Source of the DNA: a virus
Reading direction: 5' to 3' (one strand)
IMG/VR virus record: IMGVR_UViG_3300021961_011213
Coordinates: 1 to 26,036 of that record
Length of the DNA stretch: 26,036 nt
Part shown: one piece after another, positions 1 through 26,028 of the stretch
How positions within the stretch are numbered: the first letter of the stretch is position 1
How the letters are laid out: every line of letters starts with the position of its first letter
The notes under the pieces: model-generated
Told to the model about the DNA's origin: nothing
The model's database searches: none
Seen by the model: the letters and a program-made list of their open reading frames with translations, nothing else
Made by a program: the position numbers and the translations under genes

Positions 1-1300
1 CTCGGATAAGAGCATCTTCTGAACCAAACATTTCCTTGGCGATTTGTTTTGCCAGGTGGGTCTTACCTACACCCGTTGAACCCAAGAAGATAAATGAACC
101 AATTGGACGGTTGGGGTCTTTGATACCGATTCGGTTTCTACGGATGGACTTAACGATTTTGGAAACCGCCTCATCCTGTCCGATAACTTTCAACATCAAC
201 TCCTTATCCATGTTGATAAGAGCGTTGGTGTCATCGATGGACATTTTGCTCACAGGGATTTTTGTCATGTTGGAAACCACATCAAACACTTGTTCGACAG
301 AGATGGGGATTCGAGTTGTTGAAGATTCTTGTTCGAACTTCTTTTTCTCCTCATCGAGTTTTGCCAAGATTTTGCGTTCTTTGTCACGAAGGGCTGCCGC
401 CTCTTCATAGTTTTGCTTCTTGACAACATCCATCTTTTGTTGTTTGATTTCGGTTGCCTTTTGCTTGAGCTCTTCGATGATTTCAGGAATCTTCTGTTCA
501 GTTTGACTGCGAGCACCTACTTCATCCAAAATATCGAATGCTTTGTCAGGGAACTCACGGTCGGTAATATAACGGTCTGCCAACTGAACACAAAGGTTGA
601 TAATCTCATCGGAATATGAAACCTTGTGGAACGCCTCGTAACGGTCCTTCACATTGTTAAGAATTTCAATGGTCTCGGATACTGAGGAAGGGTCAACAAT
701 GACCTTTTGGAATCGACGCTCCAAAGCTCCGTCTTTCTCAAATGACTTTCGGTATTCATCCAAAGTGGTTGCTCCGATACATTGAATCTCACCTCGAGAA
801 AGTGCGGGTTTGAAGATATTGGAACCATCCAAACTACCTGATGAGTTACCTGAACCAATCAAGGTATGAATCTCATCAATGAACACGATGATGTTGGGAT
901 GTGATGACAGTTCTTCCAAGATAACTTTGAGTCGTTCTTCGAACTGTCCACGGTATTTGGTTCCTGCCACAACTGCGGTGAGGTCCAAGTTAACAATTCG
1001 CTTATCCAAAAGATTCTTGGGACATTCACCGTTTACAATGAGCATTGCTAGTCCTTCTACCAAAGCGGTTTTACCTGAACCAGGTTCCCCCAAGATAATG
1101 GGGTTATTCTTTTTCCTACGCGAGAGGATTTGGGCGATACGAACAATTTCTTTCTCTCTACCGATTACGGGGTCGAGTTTGCCTTGTTCGGCCAATTTAT
1201 TAAGGTCACGGGAAAAGTTGTCCAATACAGGAGTACCTGAGTCGGAGTTCATTTTCTTTCTGCCGATGTTCTTATCGTCGTCGTCCATTGTCTCGTTCAT
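1..1300 (-). CDS. clpC-like: ClpC-type AAA+ unfoldase, N-domain-less, 3' end outside window (partial)
   Basis: The first 433 codons are visible; the reading frame is open to the window edge. Domain order: a short acidic leader (residues 1-27), then directly the first AAA+ module with Walker A GEPGSGKT (71-78), Walker B IIVFIDEIH (137-145), sensor IGATT (175-179) and arginine pair ERR near 194-196. A ClpC-style middle region carries a UVR motif (about 292-315), and a second AAA+ module has Walker A GSTGVGKT (407-414). ClpC hexamers unfold proteins and feed them to ClpP. The family normally begins with a Clp_N double repeat of about 150 residues that binds adaptors; here it is absent, so adaptors would have to use the middle domain. 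The ATG at 1300 is the only sensible start. The gene is divergent from a UVR-motif protein, which supports a joint role. It could be called ClpB/ClpA-like, but the short M-region with UVR points to ClpC. Confidence 0.93.
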   Translation of the reverse strand, partial: MNETMDDDDKNIGRKKMNSDSGTPVLDNFSRDLNKLAEQGKLDPVIGREKEIVRIAQILSRRKKNNPIILGEPGSGKTALVEGLAMLIVNGECPKNLLDKRIVNLDLTAVVAGTKYRGQFEERLKVILEELSSHPNIIVFIDEIHTLIGSGNSSGSLDGSNIFKPALSRGEIQCIGATTLDEYRKSFEKDGALERRFQKVIVDPSSVSETIEILNNVKDRYEAFHKVSYSDEIINLCVQLADRYITDREFPDKAFDILDEVGARSQTEQKIPEIIEELKQKATEIKQQKMDVVKKQNYEEAAALRDKERKILAKLDEEKKKFEQESSTTRIPISVEQVFDVVSNMTKIPVSKMSIDDTNALINMDKELMLKVIGQDEAVSKIVKSIRRNRIGIKDPNRPIGSFIFLGSTGVGKTHLAKQIAKEMFGSEDALIR

Positions 1301-1376
1301 GATTATAAAATTTGATTTGTACAAAGGTTAGTCAAAAATCGCACATTTCCAAATCTGTAACACAAAAAAATTGTAA

Positions 1377-1498: not shown

Positions 1499-1921
1499 AT
1501 GTTTAGAAGAAGATTATTCGATGAATTTGATAACCTATTTAACTCTTTGATTAACCACGACCCTTTTGTAATGAAAGGTAAAACCTCAAAAGAGTCAGGA
1601 AATGATGAACACGGAGATTGGTCCAAAGAAACTTTCACTTCTGAAGATGGGATGATTCAGTTCACCACAATCTTCAGAACAAGTAAAGGTGATTCTGATG
1701 TCTCTGAGTCATCAGATATTAAACGACTTAAAAAAGAACTCGAATTGGCTGTTGAACAACAAGAGTTCGAACAAGCGGTTGAACTTAGAGATAAAATCAA
1801 AAATTTGGAATCAAACCAAGAAAAAATTTCGGACTTGGAAAAACAACTTCAAGAATCCATAAAAAAACAAGATTTTGAGAATGCTATTAAATTGAGAGAT
1901 GAATTGAAAAAACTTAAGTAA
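1499..1921 (+). CDS. Tandem UVR-motif protein, candidate ClpC adaptor (McsA-like logic)
   Basis: 140 aa. The N-terminus (MFRRRLFDEFDNLF) is followed by a polar linker, and the C-terminal half holds two copies of the UVR (UvrB/UvrC) helical-hairpin motif at about 76-104 and 113-140, each containing an FExAxxLRDxxK-type core. UVR motifs mediate pairing with other UVR proteins: UvrB with UvrC, and in Firmicutes McsA with ClpC or McsB. The neighbouring divergent ClpC-like ATPase carries a UVR motif in its middle domain, so an adaptor or activator role is a reasonable inference. The McsA zinc-finger cysteines are missing, so it is not an McsA orthologue. The start follows an A-rich leader with no Shine-Dalgarno sequence. 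The gene ends 24 bp before a strong terminator. Confidence 0.88.
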   Translation: MFRRRLFDEFDNLFNSLINHDPFVMKGKTSKESGNDEHGDWSKETFTSEDGMIQFTTIFRTSKGDSDVSESSDIKRLKKELELAVEQQEFEQAVELRDKIKNLESNQEKISDLEKQLQESIKKQDFENAIKLRDELKKLK

Positions 1922-2546: not shown

Positions 2547-2554
2547 TATTTATT
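2547..2554 (+). promoter_or_regulatory. Late-promoter-like octamer TATTTATT
   Basis: Directly after the KTSC gene stop and 4 nt before the ATG at 2559 of the nucleotidyltransferase-like gene. This is unusually close for a T4-type late promoter, whose start site would fall inside the first codons. Confidence 0.45.
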
Positions 2555-2558
2555 GAGG

Positions 2559-3311
2559 ATGACACAATTATCCACAATTTTAAGAAGTTTTGCCGTTCAC
2601 GATATTCTAAATCCTAAGGTTTGGGATAATCCCGAAAACGCTTCTGAATCGGTAATGAAACCCAAGGTGAGAGAATCCTTGATGAAAATCGCTGAAAAAT
2701 TTCAAGAGACCTTGATGGATGATTTGGAAATTGAGGATGTTATCCTTACAGGAAGTTTATCCAATTACAACTATTCACAGTTTTCTGACTTTGACCTTCA
2801 TTTGGTCATTGATTACAATCAGTTTGGAAAACAAGCCCAACTTTACAGAGATTTATTTGGTTTAAAAAAACAAATTTTCAACGATAAACACGACATAAGT
2901 ATTTTTGGTTATGAGGTGGAACTTTATCCACAAGATGCCGAAGAGGCACACTTTTCATCAGGAGTTTATTCTGTGATGAAAGACGAGTGGATAAATAAAC
3001 CATCAAAAGAAAAACCTCAATTGGAAAAATCAGTTTTGACCACGAAGATTGACTCTTGGGTCAGTAAAATTGAGAACCTCATTCAAAGTATAAAGAAAGA
3101 AGGTTTAAAGGCAAACGAGAAAAATATTGATAAGTTAAAAGAAAAACTTAAGGATTATAGAAAGTCAGGACTTGAAAAAGAAGGTGAATACTCGTATGAA
3201 AATTTGGTTTTCAAATATCTCCGTAGGTCTAAACTTTTGCAAAATTTGTATGACACAATAAGTAGACAAACCGACAAAGAACTTTCTGTCGAGGTTAAAT
3301 TGGTAGATTAA
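2559..3311 (+). CDS. Nucleotidyltransferase-fold protein (Pol beta superfamily)
   Basis: 250 aa. Residues 62-84 read VILTGSLSNYN...SDFDLHLVI, the signature of the nucleotidyltransferase fold: a GS motif (65-66) followed by a DxD pair (D77, D79). A plausible third carboxylate is E121 in VELY. Such enzymes transfer nucleotides to proteins, RNA or small molecules with two metal ions. The substrate cannot be told. The C-terminal 90 residues are a Lys/Glu-rich helical extension. The start is set at ATG 2559; an upstream in-frame TTG (2553) overlaps the promoter octamer. Related genes of unknown role are known in T4-type phages. The catalytic residues look intact, so it is probably active. Confidence 0.8.
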   Translation: MTQLSTILRSFAVHDILNPKVWDNPENASESVMKPKVRESLMKIAEKFQETLMDDLEIEDVILTGSLSNYNYSQFSDFDLHLVIDYNQFGKQAQLYRDLFGLKKQIFNDKHDISIFGYEVELYPQDAEEAHFSSGVYSVMKDEWINKPSKEKPQLEKSVLTTKIDSWVSKIENLIQSIKKEGLKANEKNIDKLKEKLKDYRKSGLEKEGEYSYENLVFKYLRRSKLLQNLYDTISRQTDKELSVEVKLVD

Positions 3312-7291: not shown

Positions 7292-9052
7292 ATGACCAAA
7301 GAACAAGTTATCATAGAGTATAAGAAGTGTATGAAAAGCACTCCTTATGCCCTCAAGACATATCTACAAACCTATGATAATACCGTTTCAAGATATGTTC
7401 CGTTAGAATTATTCCAAGACCAAGTTCAGTTAGTTGAGGATTATGAAGAATTCAACGAAAACATCGCTCTCAAGTATCGACAGGCTGGTGTTTCTACTGT
7501 TACTGCCGCATGGGCTAGTAAAAGACTTGCATTTGCTCGCAAAGAAAAACCTGAAAAAGTCCTCATTATTGCAAACAAACTGGACACATCCGTTGAATTT
7601 GCCAACAAGATTAGAAGTTTTACAGAACAATGGCCAGGTTGGGTTGGAATAGGATTCTCACCCGAAAAAAATTCTGCAAGACACTTCAAACTATCGAATG
7701 GTTGTGAGGTTAAAGCCGTTGCAACATCTAAAGACGCACTTAGAGGTTATACCCCCACCACACTAATATTTGATGAGGCGGCGTTTATTGAAGCTGATAG
7801 TGATTTCTGGGCTGCGTGTATGGCGTCTTTGTCTACGGGTGGTAAAGTTATTGTTATATCCACACCAAACGGTTTTGACCCCATTTATTATGAAATCTAT
7901 GACCAAGCCCTTAGAGGGATGAATGATTTCAAAATCACCGAGATGTATTGGTATAGAGACCCTCGATATACCAAAGACCTCTATATGGTTAAAACCGAAG
8001 ATTTGGTTCATTATCTCTTAAACAAAGAAGAATACCCTGATGGTATCATTATCGATTTATCAGGAGAAAACAGTAGAGAAAGACAACTCACAACTCTTCA
8101 CCAATATATTGAAGATGGTTACAAACCGTGTTCTTCATGGTTTGAGAGTATGGTGAAAAAACTTAAATATGATAAAAGAAAAGTTGCTCAGGAATTGGAG
8201 TGTAATTTTTTGGGTTCGGGTGATAATGTATTTGAGGCTCAGATGGTTCAAACAATACAAAAAAACGATATTCGAGAACCTCAAGCCAAATTAGTGGGTG
8301 GTCAATTATGGATATGGAAAGAACCTGAAAATGGTCACAAATATGTTATGGGTATTGATGTATCTCGTGGAGATTCTGAAGACTTTTCATGTATTGAAAT
8401 AATTGATTTCGATACTCGGGAACAAGTCTTAGAATATGTTGGTAAACTCCCCCCCGATACACTGGCAGAAATTGCGTACAAATGGGGTTTGATGTATAGT
8501 GCCCTGTGTGTGATTGACTTAACAGGTGGAATGGGGGTTGCAACTGCTCGTAAACTACAAGAGTTAGGGTATGAAAACTTCTATTATGACGGGGTGGATT
8601 TATCTAATAAATGGAAATACGACCCAAAAATAAAAGAGAAAATACCAGGAATTAATTTCAACAACAAAAGGGTTCAGATAATTGCCGCTTTTGAGGAGAG
8701 TCTCAGACACGAATTCAAAGTAAGGTCTTCGAGATTGTTAAATGAGATGGGAACATTTATTTACATTAACGGACGACCTGACCACCAAAAAGGACACCAT
8801 GATGATTGTATCATGTCAATAGCGATGGCGTTGTATGTGGCAGAAGCCGCATTCCCTTCGTTGGTTAAGGTTGTTAACCATACAAAGGCTATGTTAAATT
8901 CTTGGTCTACCGTAGTTACAGAGAACAAGGAAAAATCCGAATTTTTCAATCCTGCAATACCCCAATCAAATCACCCCAATATTAATCAATACAAAAATTA
9001 TACAGCAACGAGGGGGGACTATGAAAAGTATGGTTGGTTATTTGGAAGGTAA
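7292..9052 (+). CDS. gp17: Terminase large subunit (T4 gp17-like)
   Basis: 586 aa, close to T4 gp17 (610). The packaging ATPase has Walker A-like KYRQAGVST (61-69), Walker B TLIFDEAAF with D161-E162 (157-165) and coupling motif ISTPNG (189-194). The RNase H-like headful nuclease domain has D356 in GIDVSRG, D409 in VIDLTGG and D504/D505 in GHHDD, matching the three acidic positions of gp17. The motor docks on the portal and translocates DNA into the prohead. The Walker A lacks the canonical GKT and reads GVST; terminases of this group often deviate here. It starts 5 bp after the upstream stop without a Shine-Dalgarno sequence. The portal gene follows behind its own late promoter. Confidence 0.97.
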   Translation: MTKEQVIIEYKKCMKSTPYALKTYLQTYDNTVSRYVPLELFQDQVQLVEDYEEFNENIALKYRQAGVSTVTAAWASKRLAFARKEKPEKVLIIANKLDTSVEFANKIRSFTEQWPGWVGIGFSPEKNSARHFKLSNGCEVKAVATSKDALRGYTPTTLIFDEAAFIEADSDFWAACMASLSTGGKVIVISTPNGFDPIYYEIYDQALRGMNDFKITEMYWYRDPRYTKDLYMVKTEDLVHYLLNKEEYPDGIIIDLSGENSRERQLTTLHQYIEDGYKPCSSWFESMVKKLKYDKRKVAQELECNFLGSGDNVFEAQMVQTIQKNDIREPQAKLVGGQLWIWKEPENGHKYVMGIDVSRGDSEDFSCIEIIDFDTREQVLEYVGKLPPDTLAEIAYKWGLMYSALCVIDLTGGMGVATARKLQELGYENFYYDGVDLSNKWKYDPKIKEKIPGINFNNKRVQIIAAFEESLRHEFKVRSSRLLNEMGTFIYINGRPDHQKGHHDDCIMSIAMALYVAEAAFPSLVKVVNHTKAMLNSWSTVVTENKEKSEFFNPAIPQSNHPNINQYKNYTATRGDYEKYGWLFGR

Positions 9053-9094: not shown

Positions 9095-10984
9095 ATGGAG
9101 AATAGAAGTTTTACAGTTTGGCAACGACTTTCAAGAGCGTTGGGTCCTGATGCGTTAATGAATCAAGATTTTCCTGTATACAAGTTAGACAAAAAAGAAT
9201 TACTTCGTACAACAGATAAAGCTGAGTATGAAAGAGAGAAACTTCAAGCTCGTCAATCGTTTTATTTGGCGAACCAATTTGCCAAGGTTGAAAACAACCT
9301 TTATACCCAAGCCATTTATTATGAACCAAACCGTTTGGCTTCATACTACGATTATGAATCTATGGAGTATACTCCTGAGATTTCTGCGGCTTTGGACATT
9401 TACGCAGAGGAATCTACCACTCCTAATGAAGATGGTGTTATTCTTCAGATTTATTCTGAATCGAAGCGTATTAAATCTGTATTGGTAGATTTATTTAATA
9501 ATGCCTTGGACATTAACACCAACTTACCTATGTGGACAAGAAACACATGTAAGTATGGTGACAACTTTGTTTATATGAGATTGGACCCTGAAAAAGGGGT
9601 TTTGGGTTGTCAACAATTACCCAATATCGAAATAGAAAGATATGAACAAGGTTTATCTACTCGTAATGCCTCAGTAGGGGTTCCGGGAAATGCTGATGAC
9701 AAAGGTTTGAGGTTCACTTGGAAAACTCAAAACATGGAATTCCAACCATGGGAAATTGCACACTTTAGATTATTAGGTGATGATAGAAAACTTCCTTATG
9801 GTACTTCAATGTTGGAAAAGTCTCGTAGAATTTGGAAGCAACTTTTATTATCTGAGGATGCGATGTTAATTTATCGTACATCTCGTGCACCTGAAAGAAG
9901 AATTTTCAAAGTTTATGTTGGAAACATGAATGATGATGATGTGGAGGCGTATGTACAAAGAGTTGCCAACAAGTTCAAAAGAGACCAAATTGTTGATTCG
10001 AAGACAGGTAATGTAGATATGAGGTTCAACCAAATGGCTGTAGACCAAGACTTCTTCATTCCGGTAAGAGACCCATCACAACCTTCTCCAATTGAAACTT
10101 TACCTGGAGCACAAAACCTATCTGAAATTGCCGATATTGAATATATCCAAAAAAAGTTGGTTACAGCACTTCGTATTCCTAAAGCATTCTTAGGTTTCGA
10201 AGAAGTTGTTGGGGATGGTAAAAACTTGGCATTACAAGATATTCGTTTTGCTCGTACAATCAATAGAATTCAAAAATCTATGATTCAAGAGTTGAACAAA
10301 ATTGCCATCATCCACCTTTTTATTCTTGGATTCGAAGAAGAGATTTCTAATTTTACTTTAGGTCTTACTAATCCATCCACACAAGCTGATTTGCTTAAGG
10401 TAGACATTTGGAAAGAAAAGGTACTTCTTTACCGTGATTTGGTTAGTGACCCTGGAAATGGAATTCAGCCAGCATCTTCGACATGGGCGAAAAAACATAT
10501 CTTCAATTGGTCGGATGACGAAATTAGAACAGACCTCCTTCAACAAAGAATGGAGAGGGCAATCGGTGAAGAACTCAAAAATACACCAACCGTTATTTCC
10601 AAAACAGGTTTATTCGACCAATTGGATAAACTATATGGTAACAAACCTGGTGAGGGTGGTGCTCCACAAGCACCTCCAGGAGAGACTACTGAACCTGCAG
10701 GCGCTGCCTTTGGTGGTGGTGGAGGATTCGGAGGAGGTCCTGAACTTGGAGGCGAATTAGGTGGAGAACTTGGTGGTGAGTTAGGTGGTGAAACACCTGA
10801 AGCCGGAGGTGAAACAACTCCACCAGCACCTGAAGAAGAATTGACACCTGAATCAGTTAAAGACAAAGATATGAACTTGTTGATTGAAACTGATTTATAT
10901 GGAAATAAGTTTTTAAATTTGGGTGTTGCTCAACAAAGTTTAGGAAAAATGGAAGAAGAGTTAGACAAGTTGTTAAATTCCTAA
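9095..10984 (+). CDS. gp20: Portal vertex protein (T4 gp20-like)
   Basis: 629 aa (T4 gp20 is 524). The N-terminal and central regions match the gp20 family: YTPEISAALDIYAEES (about 97-112), TCKYGDNFVYMRLDP, WEIAHFRLLGDDRKLPYG, RAPERRIFKVYVGN, and GDGKNLALQDIRFARTINRIQ. The dodecamer forms the DNA entry vertex, nucleates prohead assembly and binds gp17. The extra length is a Gly/Pro/Glu-rich tail (about 520-575) with four ELGG units, followed by a helical C-terminal segment. It lies between gp17 and the prohead core genes, as in T4. The leader has no Shine-Dalgarno sequence. Its stop is contiguous with the next late octamer. Confidence 0.96.
   Translation: MENRSFTVWQRLSRALGPDALMNQDFPVYKLDKKELLRTTDKAEYEREKLQARQSFYLANQFAKVENNLYTQAIYYEPNRLASYYDYESMEYTPEISAALDIYAEESTTPNEDGVILQIYSESKRIKSVLVDLFNNALDINTNLPMWTRNTCKYGDNFVYMRLDPEKGVLGCQQLPNIEIERYEQGLSTRNASVGVPGNADDKGLRFTWKTQNMEFQPWEIAHFRLLGDDRKLPYGTSMLEKSRRIWKQLLLSEDAMLIYRTSRAPERRIFKVYVGNMNDDDVEAYVQRVANKFKRDQIVDSKTGNVDMRFNQMAVDQDFFIPVRDPSQPSPIETLPGAQNLSEIADIEYIQKKLVTALRIPKAFLGFEEVVGDGKNLALQDIRFARTINRIQKSMIQELNKIAIIHLFILGFEEEISNFTLGLTNPSTQADLLKVDIWKEKVLLYRDLVSDPGNGIQPASSTWAKKHIFNWSDDEIRTDLLQQRMERAIGEELKNTPTVISKTGLFDQLDKLYGNKPGEGGAPQAPPGETTEPAGAAFGGGGGFGGGPELGGELGGELGGELGGETPEAGGETTPPAPEEELTPESVKDKDMNLLIETDLYGNKFLNLGVAQQSLGKMEEELDKLLNS
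10742..10789 (+). repeat. Four 12-bp units encoding (Glu-Leu-Gly-Gly)4 in the portal tail
   Basis: Units gaacttggaggc, gaattaggtgga, gaacttggtggt and gagttaggtggt encode the same tetrapeptide with different codons. They lie inside a Gly-rich linker (residues 550-565) between the portal core and the C-terminal helix. Confidence 0.85.
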
Positions 10985-10992: not shown

Positions 10993-11011
10993 AGTGAATA
11001 AATACAACCTC

Positions 11012-11719
11012 ATGACCTTCGGACAAATCAAATCAGTTATCGAAAAAAATCTTGTAGAGTCTTACAAAGATAATTCTACTTTCAAACAAACCCTCAAAGA
11101 GTTCAAACATAATGTTTTGAAAAATAAATCTTTTTCAAAGATTTATTCAATTTATGACGACCTTTCTACACCACAGGGTCTTACAGAAAATGATGCCAAA
11201 GAATTTTTAGAAGAATCACTTAATGTAATTCGTCATTTACTCGAGAAGGCAACTTTACCTTCCAAGGGAGAAGATGCAAAAAATTTATATGAGGATATCG
11301 ATAACTTAGTTTATTTTCACAAGGTTAATATTCACGAAAGAATTGAGTCAAAAAAGAAAATTATTTCTAAATTAACTGAGTCTAAAAAGGGCTTGAATGA
11401 ATCCCCGAAAATTCCTTTAAAAAGTATGGTTTCAATTGCAAACCAAACTATTGGAAAATACATCGATTCTTTGGATGAAAACACTAAGAAAGATTTTTTC
11501 CATATTATTGCCTCAAAAACTGAAGATTTAGAAAGTGAATTTTCCACTCTCAAAGAGTCTGCAGTAAACAAATTGAAGGTTTTACTCTCAAAAGAAGAAG
11601 AGGTTGATATTCAAAACAAAATCAACGAGACCATTCAAAAAATTGAATCAGAAAAATACGACCAAGTAAATTATGTAAAATTGAAAAACTTGGAGGAATC
11701 TATTGTTCTAGATTCTTGA
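11012..11719 (+). CDS. Prohead-core-position protein, function unknown
   Basis: 235 aa, Lys/Glu-rich, predicted almost wholly helical. It starts MTFGQIKSVIEKNLVESYKD and contains the block LSTPQGLTENDAKEFLEE. It occupies the place between gp20 and gp21 that holds the prohead core genes 67 and 68 in T4, so a core or scaffold role is a positional inference; there is no clear sequence match. Start ATG 11012 is chosen because the upstream GTG 10994 lies almost in the promoter octamer. The N-terminal helix ends in LVE, a possible gp21 cleavage site. Its last 20 bases overlap the end of the convergent rpsU-like gene. Confidence 0.8.
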   Translation: MTFGQIKSVIEKNLVESYKDNSTFKQTLKEFKHNVLKNKSFSKIYSIYDDLSTPQGLTENDAKEFLEESLNVIRHLLEKATLPSKGEDAKNLYEDIDNLVYFHKVNIHERIESKKKIISKLTESKKGLNESPKIPLKSMVSIANQTIGKYIDSLDENTKKDFFHIIASKTEDLESEFSTLKESAVNKLKVLLSKEEEVDIQNKINETIQKIESEKYDQVNYVKLKNLEESIVLDS

Positions 11720-11885
11720 GTTTTTGAACATACTTCGCTTTAATCTTTTGATTTCTTTTTTTTACTGATTTTTTTTCGAATTCTTTTCGTGCATTCAACT
11801 TTTGATTTTGTCTGGTTTTAATAACCTTTGACTTCAGAGTTTTGAGTGCCTTTTCAATATTTTTATCGACTTCGACTATTAACAT
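11700..11885 (-). CDS. rpsU: Ribosomal protein bS21 (phage-encoded)
   Basis: 61 aa, the normal length for Bacteroidota bS21. The family pattern is visible along the whole chain: MLIVEV at the N-terminus, NIEKALKTLKSK, a central basic run with LNARKEF, KKSVKKR, and KAKYVQKL near the end. bS21 sits on the 30S platform beside the 3' end of 16S rRNA. In Flavobacterium johnsoniae it helps sequester the anti-Shine-Dalgarno sequence, with Tyr54 contacting it; Y52 here aligns with that residue (KAAYIQTL versus KAKYVQKL). ATG 11885 is chosen over an in-frame TTG at 11909, since the family begins MLI. No Shine-Dalgarno sequence is seen. The gene stands alone on the opposite strand between head genes, and its end overlaps the + strand gene by 20 bp. 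Confidence 0.9.
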   Translation of the reverse strand: MLIVEVDKNIEKALKTLKSKVIKTRQNQKLNARKEFEKKSVKKRNQKIKAKYVQKLKNLEQ

Positions 11886-11962
11886 ATTATAGAAATATTT
11901 GGTTTTCAACGAAAAGTTTCTTATTCTTTATAAAAAATAAACGGAGACCAATTTTATGATAA

Positions 11963-12442: not shown

Positions 12443-13159
12443 ATGAAAGATTTACGAATCCTTGGACCAAGAGAATCAGGTAAGGGAATTTTAATTGAGA
12501 TGGACGCGGGATACATTTCTCCCAAAGACCCAATTAATGAAACATTCCTTAAAGAACAAAAAGAATTGGATTATAGAAATCCTTTTGAGTTTTATGCCGT
12601 ACTTCAAAAATTTGGTGTTCCAAATAGAAATGGAAGAATCTATCCCGAAAAAATCTTGAAAAGAGAGGCGGACAGATATAAAACAATGATTAAAAAAGGT
12701 CTTTCAACTTCTGAGTTGAACCACCCTGAGTCTTCTCTAATCGATTTGGATAGGGTTGCACACATCATTACGGATATATGGTGGGATAACCATATTCTTA
12801 TGGGTAAATTGAAACTCTTGACATCTCCAGGTTTTCATGAAAGTGGAATCGTATCTACTAAAGGTGATATTGCGGCTAACCTAATGAGACAAGGGGTTAC
12901 CATGGGAGTTTCTTCAAGAGGTGTTGGTTCATTGAAAAAAATTGGTGAGCAAAATGAAGTTCAAGATGATTTTGAATTGATTTGTTTTGACTTAGTATCA
13001 TCCCCATCAACCCCTGGTGCTTACCTCTTTAACTCTCCTGAAGAGAGGTCTATGTATGAAGAAAACCTTGAAGAAGAAAGAAAACAAAAAATTTCTGACT
13101 CTGGAATGGGTAAGTCAGTTGATTTAATGAAAAAATTAACCGATTATTTAAATCGTTAA
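12443..13159 (+). CDS. gp21: Prohead maturation protease (T4 gp21-like)
   Basis: 238 aa, slightly longer than T4 gp21 (212). This serine protease of the prohead cleaves scaffold, core and capsid proteins at (L/I)xE sites before DNA packaging. Sequence signs: NRNGRIYP (61-68), the His block ELNHPES with H94, the nucleophile block MGVSSRGVG with S157/S158 (154-162), and FDLVSSPS with D183 (182-189), in the order expected for the family. The charged C-terminus (SPEERSMYEENLEEERKQK) may be autoprocessed. Its place between gp20 and gp22 agrees with T4 gene order. The leader is A-rich, with no Shine-Dalgarno sequence. Confidence 0.95.
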   Translation: MKDLRILGPRESGKGILIEMDAGYISPKDPINETFLKEQKELDYRNPFEFYAVLQKFGVPNRNGRIYPEKILKREADRYKTMIKKGLSTSELNHPESSLIDLDRVAHIITDIWWDNHILMGKLKLLTSPGFHESGIVSTKGDIAANLMRQGVTMGVSSRGVGSLKKIGEQNEVQDDFELICFDLVSSPSTPGAYLFNSPEERSMYEENLEEERKQKISDSGMGKSVDLMKKLTDYLNR

Positions 13160-15151: not shown

Positions 15152-16948
15152 ATGGGAGCATTATTAGAAAGTGGTCTTGTTGGTAACATCGGTCTTAAGC
15201 ACCTTAAAGTTATCAAAGAAGACACAATCAGCAAATGGGACAAGTTAGGATTCCTCGATGGACTTAACGGTCACCTTAAAGAGAACATCGCTCAGTTATA
15301 TGAAAACCAAGCGTCGTATCTTATCAACGAAGCAGCATCGACTGCTGATACAGGTTCATTCGAAACTGTTGTTTTCCCAATCGTAAGAAGAGTATTCTCT
15401 AAACTTTTGGCTAACGATATCGTTTCTGTACAAGCGATGAACCTTCCTATCGGTAAGTTGTTCTACTTCGTTCCAAACATTCAGTCTTACACTGGAGCTG
15501 GACTTAACGAGCACTGGGCACCTTACGGAGCACCTAACGCGGCTGCAGGTCAAACTCCAACCAGTGGTTATGACTACAATAACACTAAAGACCTTTACGA
15601 TAGATTCTACGAAGGTAACGAACCAGCATTGGACCCACCAGGTCTTTATGACTACTCTAAAGGTTCATTCTCAGCTATCACGGCTGGTACAAGAACAGTT
15701 GCATGGTTAGCTGACCAATTAGTTGTTTCTGCATATGGTCTTGACAACTATAGAAAAGTTATCATCATGATGTCAGGTTTCGCATCTGCGGGAGCTGGTC
15801 AACTTATCGGACCTAACGGTCAACCAATGGACTCTGAAGAATTCTTAGCAGACCTTACAATCAGAGGTGTTGCAGGAAACGCTTACACTTCAGGCAATAC
15901 TGGTAACAACTATCTCTTCAGAGTAGTAACTCAGAGATACGGTAAAGGTATTGTTGAATACGGACAGGATTCTACATTAGTATTCCCTAACAGTGAGACT
16001 GGTGGTGGTACTTACTACAATGTATGTGACGCTGAAGGAAAAATTTACTTAGAAGTAGACCTTCAAGTTCCTGTATGTGTTGATTGTGGTGCATCTTCTT
16101 TGGATGGTTACACAGGTTCAACATTCGAATCAACTGTAGCTAATGATTCTGCTTTCAGTGCAACTTACAGAATCTACAAGAATCTTGAATTTGAAGATAA
16201 AATTGGTGAGGTTTCTTTTGACCTTCAGTCTGTGACTGTTTCGGTTACTGAAAGAAAATTAAGAGCTCAATGGTCACCTGAAATGGCGCAGGATGTTGCA
16301 GCATTCCACAATATCGACGCTGAAGCTGAATTGACAGCTTTGTTGTCTGAGCAGGTAGCTGCAGAAATCGACCGTGAAATCCTTAGAGACTTGAGAAAAG
16401 CTGCGTCTTGGAACTTGAGATGGGATTACAACGGATGGAAGCGTCTTTCTACAGGTGGAACCACTCCTTACACTCAGAAGGACTGGAACCAAACTCTTAT
16501 CACCGCGATTAACCAAATTTCAGCACAAATCCACAAATCTACATTGAGAGGTGGAGCTAACTGGATTGTTGTATCTTCAGAGGTTTCTGCAATCTTCGAC
16601 GACTTGGAGTACTTCCATGTATCGAACGCAGCACCTGAGCAAGACCAATACAACATGGGTATCGAAAGAGTTGGTACTTTGGCTGGTAGATATCAAGTTT
16701 ACCGTGACCCATACTTCCCAGCAAACCAAGTTTTGTTAGGACACAAGGGTACTTCGTTACTTGACACAGGTTACATCTACGCACCATATGTACCTTTACA
16801 ACTCACTCCAACGATGTATAACCCATTCAACTTTACACCAATCAAGGGTATCATGACCAGATACGCTAAGAAGGTGGTTAACAACCGTTTCTACGGTCGT
16901 ATCACAGTTGATGGAGTTAGAACATTCGACTTGAGAGAATTGAGATAA
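15152..16948 (+). CDS. gp23: Major capsid protein (T4 gp23-like)
   Basis: 598 aa (T4 gp23 is 521). Family blocks: KWDKLGFLDGLNGHLKENIAQLYENQ (29-53), FPIVRRVFSKLLANDIVSVQAMN (75-97), RKLRAQWSPEMAQDVAAFH (about 370), IDREILRDLRKA, GRYQVYRDPYF, and TGYIYAPYVPL near the end. It forms the hexamers of the shell. A cleavage site equivalent to T4 E65/A66 is likely at LINE|AAS (after E60). The extra length is an inserted region (about 195-350) with a CVDC pair at C309 and C312. The leader is A-rich with no Shine-Dalgarno sequence despite a need for very high expression. The gene is followed by a strong terminator. Codons are more GC-rich than in neighbours (many -aac and -ttc), consistent with high expression. 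Confidence 0.97.
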   Translation: MGALLESGLVGNIGLKHLKVIKEDTISKWDKLGFLDGLNGHLKENIAQLYENQASYLINEAASTADTGSFETVVFPIVRRVFSKLLANDIVSVQAMNLPIGKLFYFVPNIQSYTGAGLNEHWAPYGAPNAAAGQTPTSGYDYNNTKDLYDRFYEGNEPALDPPGLYDYSKGSFSAITAGTRTVAWLADQLVVSAYGLDNYRKVIIMMSGFASAGAGQLIGPNGQPMDSEEFLADLTIRGVAGNAYTSGNTGNNYLFRVVTQRYGKGIVEYGQDSTLVFPNSETGGGTYYNVCDAEGKIYLEVDLQVPVCVDCGASSLDGYTGSTFESTVANDSAFSATYRIYKNLEFEDKIGEVSFDLQSVTVSVTERKLRAQWSPEMAQDVAAFHNIDAEAELTALLSEQVAAEIDREILRDLRKAASWNLRWDYNGWKRLSTGGTTPYTQKDWNQTLITAINQISAQIHKSTLRGGANWIVVSSEVSAIFDDLEYFHVSNAAPEQDQYNMGIERVGTLAGRYQVYRDPYFPANQVLLGHKGTSLLDTGYIYAPYVPLQLTPTMYNPFNFTPIKGIMTRYAKKVVNNRFYGRITVDGVRTFDLRELR

Positions 16949-25099: not shown

Positions 25100-25846
25100 T
25101 TAATATTTTATTTTGGATTGTACCACACCATAAAGTTTTTTAAACTTCTTCATAGAATTTCTAATCTCTTTGGTGGACAAATTTGTCATTTCTCTCAATG
25201 AGAGTAAAATAATATTTTTATTGAATTTGTTGTTGTCGGCACTTGCAAAAATAGTTTCATAATTTTCAAAAAGGTCAACTAAAGCATATCCAAGTTTTAC
25301 TTCATTATCCGATAAATTTTCTGAGTTGATATAATCTTTTAGTTGGTTCAAATATTCTTGAATAACAACATCCATTTCTATTGAGTCAGATTCGATAAAG
25401 TATATCATGTCAGGTCTTTGCTCTAATGAGATAGAAATGTCCTCATAAGAAACTTTCCTATTCATTTCTTTTTGGTCCTTGATAATTTGCCCCATTAGGT
25501 AATTTTTACAAATGGTACCAAAATAAGAATATGCCTTCTTGTTTTTTGCTGGTTTGAATTTATCAACCTTTGTCATCAAAAAGGAATGGGTATCCACATG
25601 AATTTCCCTAAAATCCATATCTTTCCGATACAATTTGTATCTCCTGATTATAGATGAAATCATTTTATCTAAGGGTGCTCGAAGAAACTCGTTGTAAATT
25701 TTATTTTTTTCTTCCCATGACTCAGCTAAGAGGAAGGCTTTTACAGCCTCCTCCTCTCTGACATCAAAATAGTTGGTGGTAGTTGCTTTACGACCCCTTT
25801 TTTTGGATGAAACATCCTCGGTTGTTGCCGTTAATGTTTCTGACAT
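25100..25846 (-). CDS. gp55: Late-transcription sigma factor (T4 gp55-like)
   Basis: 248 aa (T4 gp55 is 185). The region about 50-130 resembles sigma-70 region 2 as kept in gp55: LDKMISSIIRRYKLYRKDM, REIHVDTHSFLMTKVDKF and KKAYSYFGTICKNYLMGQIIKD. The last 35 residues look like a short helix-turn-helix (LSLREMTNLSTKEIRNS). gp55 redirects host RNA polymerase to late promoters lacking a -35 element; the TATTTAT(A/T) octamers here are its likely targets. The extra N-terminus includes an AT-hook-like KKRGRK (15-20). The acidic clamp-binding tail of T4 gp55 is not obvious here. ATG 25846 is preferred over TTG 25849; it overlaps the stop of the 60-aa gene (TGATG). Confidence 0.85.
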   Translation of the reverse strand: MSETLTATTEDVSSKKRGRKATTTNYFDVREEEAVKAFLLAESWEEKNKIYNEFLRAPLDKMISSIIRRYKLYRKDMDFREIHVDTHSFLMTKVDKFKPAKNKKAYSYFGTICKNYLMGQIIKDQKEMNRKVSYEDISISLEQRPDMIYFIESDSIEMDVVIQEYLNQLKDYINSENLSDNEVKLGYALVDLFENYETIFASADNNKFNKNIILLSLREMTNLSTKEIRNSMKKFKKLYGVVQSKIKY

Positions 25847-26028
25847 CAATCATTTTGTTGTTCGAATTTTATGGTTCTATCATCCTTGAAGAAATATTCT
25901 TTTTTTGCGGATTGTACCCAAAACTTAACTTCTTCATCCAACATCTTTTCATTACCAAACTTATAGTTCCAAAAAAGAGAACCCTCTCTCATATTTGTGT
26001 GTTTGTACCCAATTTTCGGAATTGTCAT
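25846..26028 (-). CDS. Small protein upstream of gp55, 60 aa, unknown
   Basis: MTIPKIGYKHTNMREGSLFWNYKFG, then an acidic/aromatic part (EEVKFWVQSAKKEYFFKDD). Complete within the window. Its stop overlaps the sigma-factor ATG, indicating translational coupling. No domain is recognised; it may be a late-transcription accessory or just a neighbour. No promoter is visible in the 8 bases left upstream. Confidence 0.7.
   Translation of the reverse strand: MTIPKIGYKHTNMREGSLFWNYKFGNEKMLDEEVKFWVQSAKKEYFFKDDRTIKFEQQND

Follow-up and report, generated by a model that had tools for sequence, protein, structure and literature searches.

A bS21 gene with no Shine-Dalgarno sequence among the head genes of a T4-like phage, compared with host rpsU

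bS21 in phages and in their hosts

Among the ribosomal proteins that phages carry, bS21 is the commonest, and its role there is still a proposal. The closest described systems are the Bacteroidetes myoviruses of Chen et al. (2022), whose bS21 gene has the same place and orientation as the one discussed here (PMC9723584). In these phages, an aromatic residue at position 54 (Tyr54) is conserved, and bS21 is expressed late, together with the structural genes. Chen et al. proposed that the phage protein replaces the bS21 of the host (PMC9723584). The Tyr54 contact itself goes back to Jha et al. (2021), cited here through later papers.

The host side of this system is best described in Flavobacterium johnsoniae. 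Here, rpsU is autoregulated through an extended Shine-Dalgarno (SD) sequence by ribosomes that lack bS21, a control on which McNutt et al. (2023) provide data for Y54A and deltaC variants of bS21 (PMC9976891). In this organism efficient initiation on mRNAs that have no SD depends on bS21, and host messages other than rpsU are likewise SD-less (PMC9976891). McNutt et al. also speculated that a phage protease might remove host bS21 (PMC9976891).

A third system comes from a pelagiphage. The bS21 of pelagiphage HTVC008M was shown by Mizuno et al. (2019) to enter E. coli ribosomes, which were left with approximately 5% of their activity; bS21 binds loosely and can be exchanged (PMC6375957). HTVC008M resembles the phage considered here in carrying a bS21, and differs in its alphaproteobacterial host, its phage lineage and its origin.

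Thus, where the gene lies, its orientation, the conserved Tyr54, its late expression and the idea of replacement are already published (PMC9723584), as is SD-dependent autoregulation of rpsU (PMC9976891), and the bS21 described below belongs to a published kind of arrangement, not one new in kind. The points added here are a contrast in SD sequences, a box that abuts the ATG and the loss of Gly27 and Pro41, all three read from sequence, together with the co-occurrence of a ClpC-type unfoldase and a UVR protein.

The bS21 gene and its surroundings

The gene comes from a 26-kb viral record of IMG/VR, the whole of which is called the window, that carries T4-like terminase, portal, prohead protease and capsid genes (Table 1). 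Its translation is MLIVEVDKNIEKALKTLKSKVIKTRQNQKLNARKEFEKKSVKKRNQKIKAKYVQKLKNLEQ. The 61-aa product matches Pfam Ribosomal_S21 with an E value of 8.7e-9 and 35.4 bits, passing the gathering cut-off of 27, and its closest solved structures are 9i5v_9 (1.6e-7) and 7jil_z of F. johnsoniae (4.7e-7). The profile match and the solved relatives agree with the original prediction of a full-length bS21. The NCBIfam equivalog TIGR00030 (S21p) gives 23.2 bits, below its naming cut-off of 28.95. Automatic annotation might therefore not name the phage protein, and it is filed here as a divergent member of the bS21 family, rather than as one proven to work like host bS21.

A chance reading frame is excluded because relatives are encoded in 361 IMG/VR stretches, the ATG is preserved at 81 of 81 loci, and the median dN/dS is 0.17 (127 usable pairs). 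The gene is under purifying selection. A 69-aa alternative from the list of open reading frames, starting with TTG at 11909, was rejected because of the stop codon found directly before the conserved ATG in several relatives. No tRNA, Rfam or terminator signal was found around the gene, and searching phage records with the DNA of the locus returned no match. The isolated bS21 model had no significant Foldseek match, which is no surprise for two free helices; this is silent on where Y52 would be placed on the ribosome.

Table 1. Features of the window discussed in the text
Feature	Position	Strand	Evidence and remarks
ClpC-type AAA+ unfoldase without N domain	2..1324	-	cut by contig end; ClpC 3j3s_A E 5e-144
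UVR-motif protein (McsA-like motif)	1499..1921	+	divergent from Clp gene; PF02151 3.5e-17
Nucleotidyltransferase-like protein	2553..3311		weak Polbeta match; phrog_36119 7.5e-40 (family without assigned function)
Terminase large subunit (T4-like)	7292..9052	+	PF03237 1.1e-13; phrog_2
Portal protein (gp20-like)	9095..10984	+	PF07230 9e-76
HP-1, convergent neighbour of bS21	11012..11719	+	3' end overlaps bS21 by 20 bp; 80/80 relatives
Phage bS21, 61 aa + stop	11700..11885	-	ATG start; PF01165; PDB 7jil_z and 9i5v_9; 81/81 ATG; dN/dS 0.17
Tyr52 codon, equivalent of F. johnsoniae Tyr54	11730..11732	-	alignment
Conserved promoter-like region of bS21	11886..11915	-	TTTT box at -30..-27; ATATTTCTA box at -13, abutting ATG; no SD
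CN, divergent neighbour of bS21, 150 aa	11963..12415	+	like bS21_CN of Chen et al. in position and sharing
Prohead protease (gp21-like)	12443..13159	+	PF03420 1.6e-23
Major capsid protein (gp23-like)	15152..16948	+	PF07068 1.7e-73
Possible late sigma factor	25100..25849	-	sigma-factor matches, both weak: TIGR02937 at E 0.0075 and phrog_234 (late sigma) at E 0.03

Within the window, bS21 is the one reverse-strand gene between those for portal and prohead protease. Its arrangement was counted in the closest 80 of the 361 stretches with relatives. All 80 have bS21 between HP-1 and CN, with the downstream neighbour on the opposite strand, and the bS21 strand opposes that of the terminase (TerL), portal, protease and capsid genes in the window and in these relatives, wherever the contig includes those genes. 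The lone, reversed bS21 in the head cluster that was originally described from the window is thus the same in all 80.

The two neighbours are themselves constant. HP-1 likely starts at the ATG at 11012 and not at the GTG at 10994, and its relatives share the start MTFGQIK. A ATATTTATTA-like string lies at the portal stop codon, ahead of HP-1, in most relatives. CN adjoins bS21 in 78 of the 80 relatives, the contigs of the remaining two ending at or just past bS21. The CN sequence is strongly conserved, including the segment IVDLDLRTSGI. Searches with CN found no sequence relative among deposited phages, no family match and no significant match to a solved structure. Its AF2 model (pLDDT 89) is a well-predicted alpha/beta fold with one viral structural match in BFVD, A0A8S5L9A5, itself without assigned function; the VIA-align Z values are middling (7 or less) and are left uninterpreted.

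How does this locus compare with those of Chen et al. (clades a-e, PMC9723584)? Both have a reverse-strand bS21 between two hypothetical genes within a TerL-portal-protease-MCP series, and both have an aromatic residue at F. johnsoniae position 54 (Y52 in the window). The positions at which those phage proteins diverge, R21, F23, T28 and an Asp (numbered 25 by Chen et al., residue 24 in the sequence used here), differ in the window as well (S19, V21, I22, Q26). The arrangement was published before for lake phages. One difference concerns range: loci L023 and L025 carry bS21 at 66-69% TerL identity to the window, whereas Chen et al. found none below approximately 70% similarity, figures that set identity against similarity and use different references.

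We infer that the host is probably a Flavobacteriia-like member of the Bacteroidota. One of the two nearest solved bS21 proteins is that of F. johnsoniae, and the capsid and TerL of the window are among the closest to those of Flavobacterium phage immuto. In this cultured relative the order of terminase, portal, protease and capsid genes is unchanged, and three hypothetical genes separate portal from protease; no bS21 is annotated in that interval, and tblastn gave no bS21 match in this phage.

Residue changes and the Shine-Dalgarno contrast

The window and its 80 relatives supply 34 distinct bS21 proteins, compared here with 74 bacterial sequences. Y52 of the window aligns with Y54 of F. johnsoniae, the offset coming from a two-residue deletion near the N-terminus, so that the tyrosine that contacts the anti-SD is kept, as had been supposed. 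Position 54 holds Tyr in 32 of the 34 viral proteins and His in two. In a wider set of Bacteroidota rpsU sequences, ranked by Pfam score, only 4 of 30 have Tyr there.

Other positions have changed. Gly27 and Pro41 are invariant in the 74 bacterial sequences, and both are replaced in every one of the 34 phage proteins, Gly27 always by Lys or Arg. Further, L17, V21, I22, Q26 and K39 are fixed in all 34, while all 74 bacterial sequences have other residues at these places. Phage-specific changes are found along the N-terminal helix as well as at the sites of the invariant Gly and Pro. In a tree with the 74 bacterial sequences, the viral proteins fall on one side of a branch with support 100/100 and form one virus-only clade; the 65-column alignment is short, and inner forks are unsure. 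Set beside the host protein of Flavobacterium (7JIL; PMC9976891), the window bS21 shares family, length to within three residues, Tyr54 and overall alignment, but has the N-terminal deletion, a changed N-terminal helix, Arg for Gly27, Lys for Pro41 and no extended SD.

For the SD, pairing was computed with nucleotides 1532-1544 of the 16S tail, the range named by McNutt et al., and an extended SD was taken as one below -13 kcal/mol. The best pairing in the 22 nt upstream of the window bS21 is -1.8 kcal/mol, which is no SD, and thus not the extended SD of an autoregulated rpsU. No viral copy of 79 goes beyond -2.7 kcal/mol. In contrast, pairing ranges from -18.4 to -21.6 kcal/mol across all 79 rpsU genes of Flavobacterium, a host sample confined to that genus (30 wider Bacteroidota rpsU loci, several with miscalled starts, were left out). 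Both halves of the contrast drawn in the original prediction therefore hold, the control of host rpsU through its own SD (autoregulation in PMC9976891, and a strong SD in 79/79) as well as the missing SD of the phage gene. At the level of sequence, the contrast between host rpsU and close phage copies is new.

The missing SD characterizes this phage and not just its bS21, since none of the 24 ATG-start genes of the window that were tested has an SD, and none pairs at or below -7 kcal/mol. Nor is SD loss universal among phages. Uncultured phages of 634-735 kb (LR756501-04, LR745206) also carry bS21, and one of these copies, that of LR756501 (735-kb phage, L196 8001), differs from the rest in having an SD (-12.1 kcal/mol). 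In the four huge-phage proteins read, Tyr54 is always kept and Gly27, Pro41 or both are gone, LR756501 retaining Pro41. These phages differ from the window in having no detectable TerL, portal, protease or capsid relative within 8 kb of bS21.

In place of an SD, the phage gene has a promoter-like region (Table 1), which may act as the bS21 promoter. Of 33 distinct bS21 upstreams, 28 have an ATATTT that begins 13-15 nt ahead of the ATG, and in two more it lies at -27 (counted by eye). The window contains four copies of a related string, ATATTTATA (3358, 17409, 19352 and 20842), always upstream of a gene start and on the right strand, at distances of 22, 22, 43 and 22 nt in that order; it is probably a phage promoter motif. 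A position weight matrix scan of the window with the bS21 box was too permissive to list promoters alone. If the box is a phage promoter, then its bS21 copy lies approximately 9 nt nearer the start codon than the usual 22, which would make the leader very short or absent. Thus, to judge from the closeness of box and ATG, and with the transcription start inferred, the bS21 mRNA may be nearly leaderless in most of these phages.

Possible roles of the phage protein

The reading preferred here, with confidence somewhat better than even, is that a late, SD-free phage bS21 holds host rpsU repressed, escapes that control itself and progressively replaces the bS21 of the host. A T4-like phage of a Bacteroidota host would make its own bS21 late, if related phages are a guide, from a separate promoter on the reverse strand. 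The protein would enter host 30S subunits and keep the 16S tail hidden; because the Tyr contact is kept, the anti-SD should stay hidden. This, in turn, matters for one host gene, since host rpsU is translated best by ribosomes without bS21. An SD-free phage copy would therefore hold host rpsU repressed while escaping the same control, and phage bS21 would progressively displace the host version. The SD contrast thus suggests how displacement could come about.

The original prediction went further, and proposed that ribosomes that ignore SD sequences favor phage messages. This part is weak. Hiding the anti-SD cannot by itself separate phage from host mRNA, because host messages besides rpsU also have no SD; its effect would be to repress rpsU, the only host gene that relies on an SD. 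A preference for phage messages, if there is one, would have to arise from the altered residues of the N-terminal part and the hinge rather than from a hidden anti-SD alone. Replacement could also harm translation, given the approximately 5% activity left to E. coli ribosomes by the pelagiphage protein (PMC6375957).

A simpler reading is that the phage copy tops up bS21 that is lost late, when host rpsU mRNA is gone, and that its differences are drift, with no preference among messages. Loose, exchangeable binding (PMC6375957), the retention of Tyr54 and many core residues, and the need of F. johnsoniae for bS21 in efficient SD-less initiation (PMC9976891) would all suit such restocking. Positions 17, 21, 22, 26 and 39, however, are fixed in 34/34 viral proteins and never hold the bacterial residue, which looks more like selection than drift, although fixation in a single founder, followed by constraint, could also explain them. 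Restocking alone is considered rather unlikely.

The place of the gene among head genes, fixed in 80 relatives with the constant partners HP-1 and CN, would be explained if bS21 worked away from the ribosome, as a head or packaging factor that binds RNA, or were packed in virions, a possibility mentioned by Chen et al. (PMC9723584). Conservation of the residue that contacts the anti-SD makes little sense off the ribosome, however, the gene has its own promoter-like box on the opposite strand, and the huge phages with bS21 show no such head genes within 8 kb; such a use is improbable. That phage bS21 is instead a poison with which ribosomes translate poorly, as the cut in E. coli ribosome activity (PMC6375957) and the loss of invariant Gly27 and Pro41 might suggest, is very improbable, for in related phages bS21 is made late, when phage proteins are needed in bulk (PMC9723584), and a general poison would hit phage messages as well, SD-less as they are like those of the host.

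Progressive replacement through the SD contrast has the merit of a direct prediction. Because the control of host bS21 is understood in Flavobacterium, an rpsU'-gfp reporter is predicted to be silenced by phage bS21. Whether phages remodel ribosomes becomes, in this way, a question for a reporter assay in an easily handled laboratory strain.

Clp genes were noted in bS21 phages by Chen et al. (PMC9723584). The ClpC-type protein of the window is assigned no N domain because its match starts at ClpC residue 153. Of 20 bS21 contigs, a set that includes fragments, 12 have its gene, and in one (G003) it is in pieces. Full-length relatives have 665-681 aa and a loop that reads IGF in five of six and MGF in the sixth, which we take, by analogy with ClpA and ClpC, to be a loop for docking ClpP. 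The UVR protein adjoins the Clp gene in the window, and likewise in 9 of 20 contigs; the McsA model matches it at 1.5e-10, far under the naming cut-off. It is possibly an adaptor of the unfoldase.

As a guess from co-occurrence with bS21, the unfoldase is a candidate for the bS21-removing protease on which McNutt et al. speculated. A fuller version of progressive replacement, and a doubtful one, would then have a late, SD-free and nearly leaderless phage rpsU silence host rpsU while the unfoldase and its UVR adaptor remove host bS21, so that ribosomes pass into a phage-specific form with an altered hinge. Many bS21 phages have kept the ClpC-type and UVR pair, which lies some 10-15 kb away from bS21.
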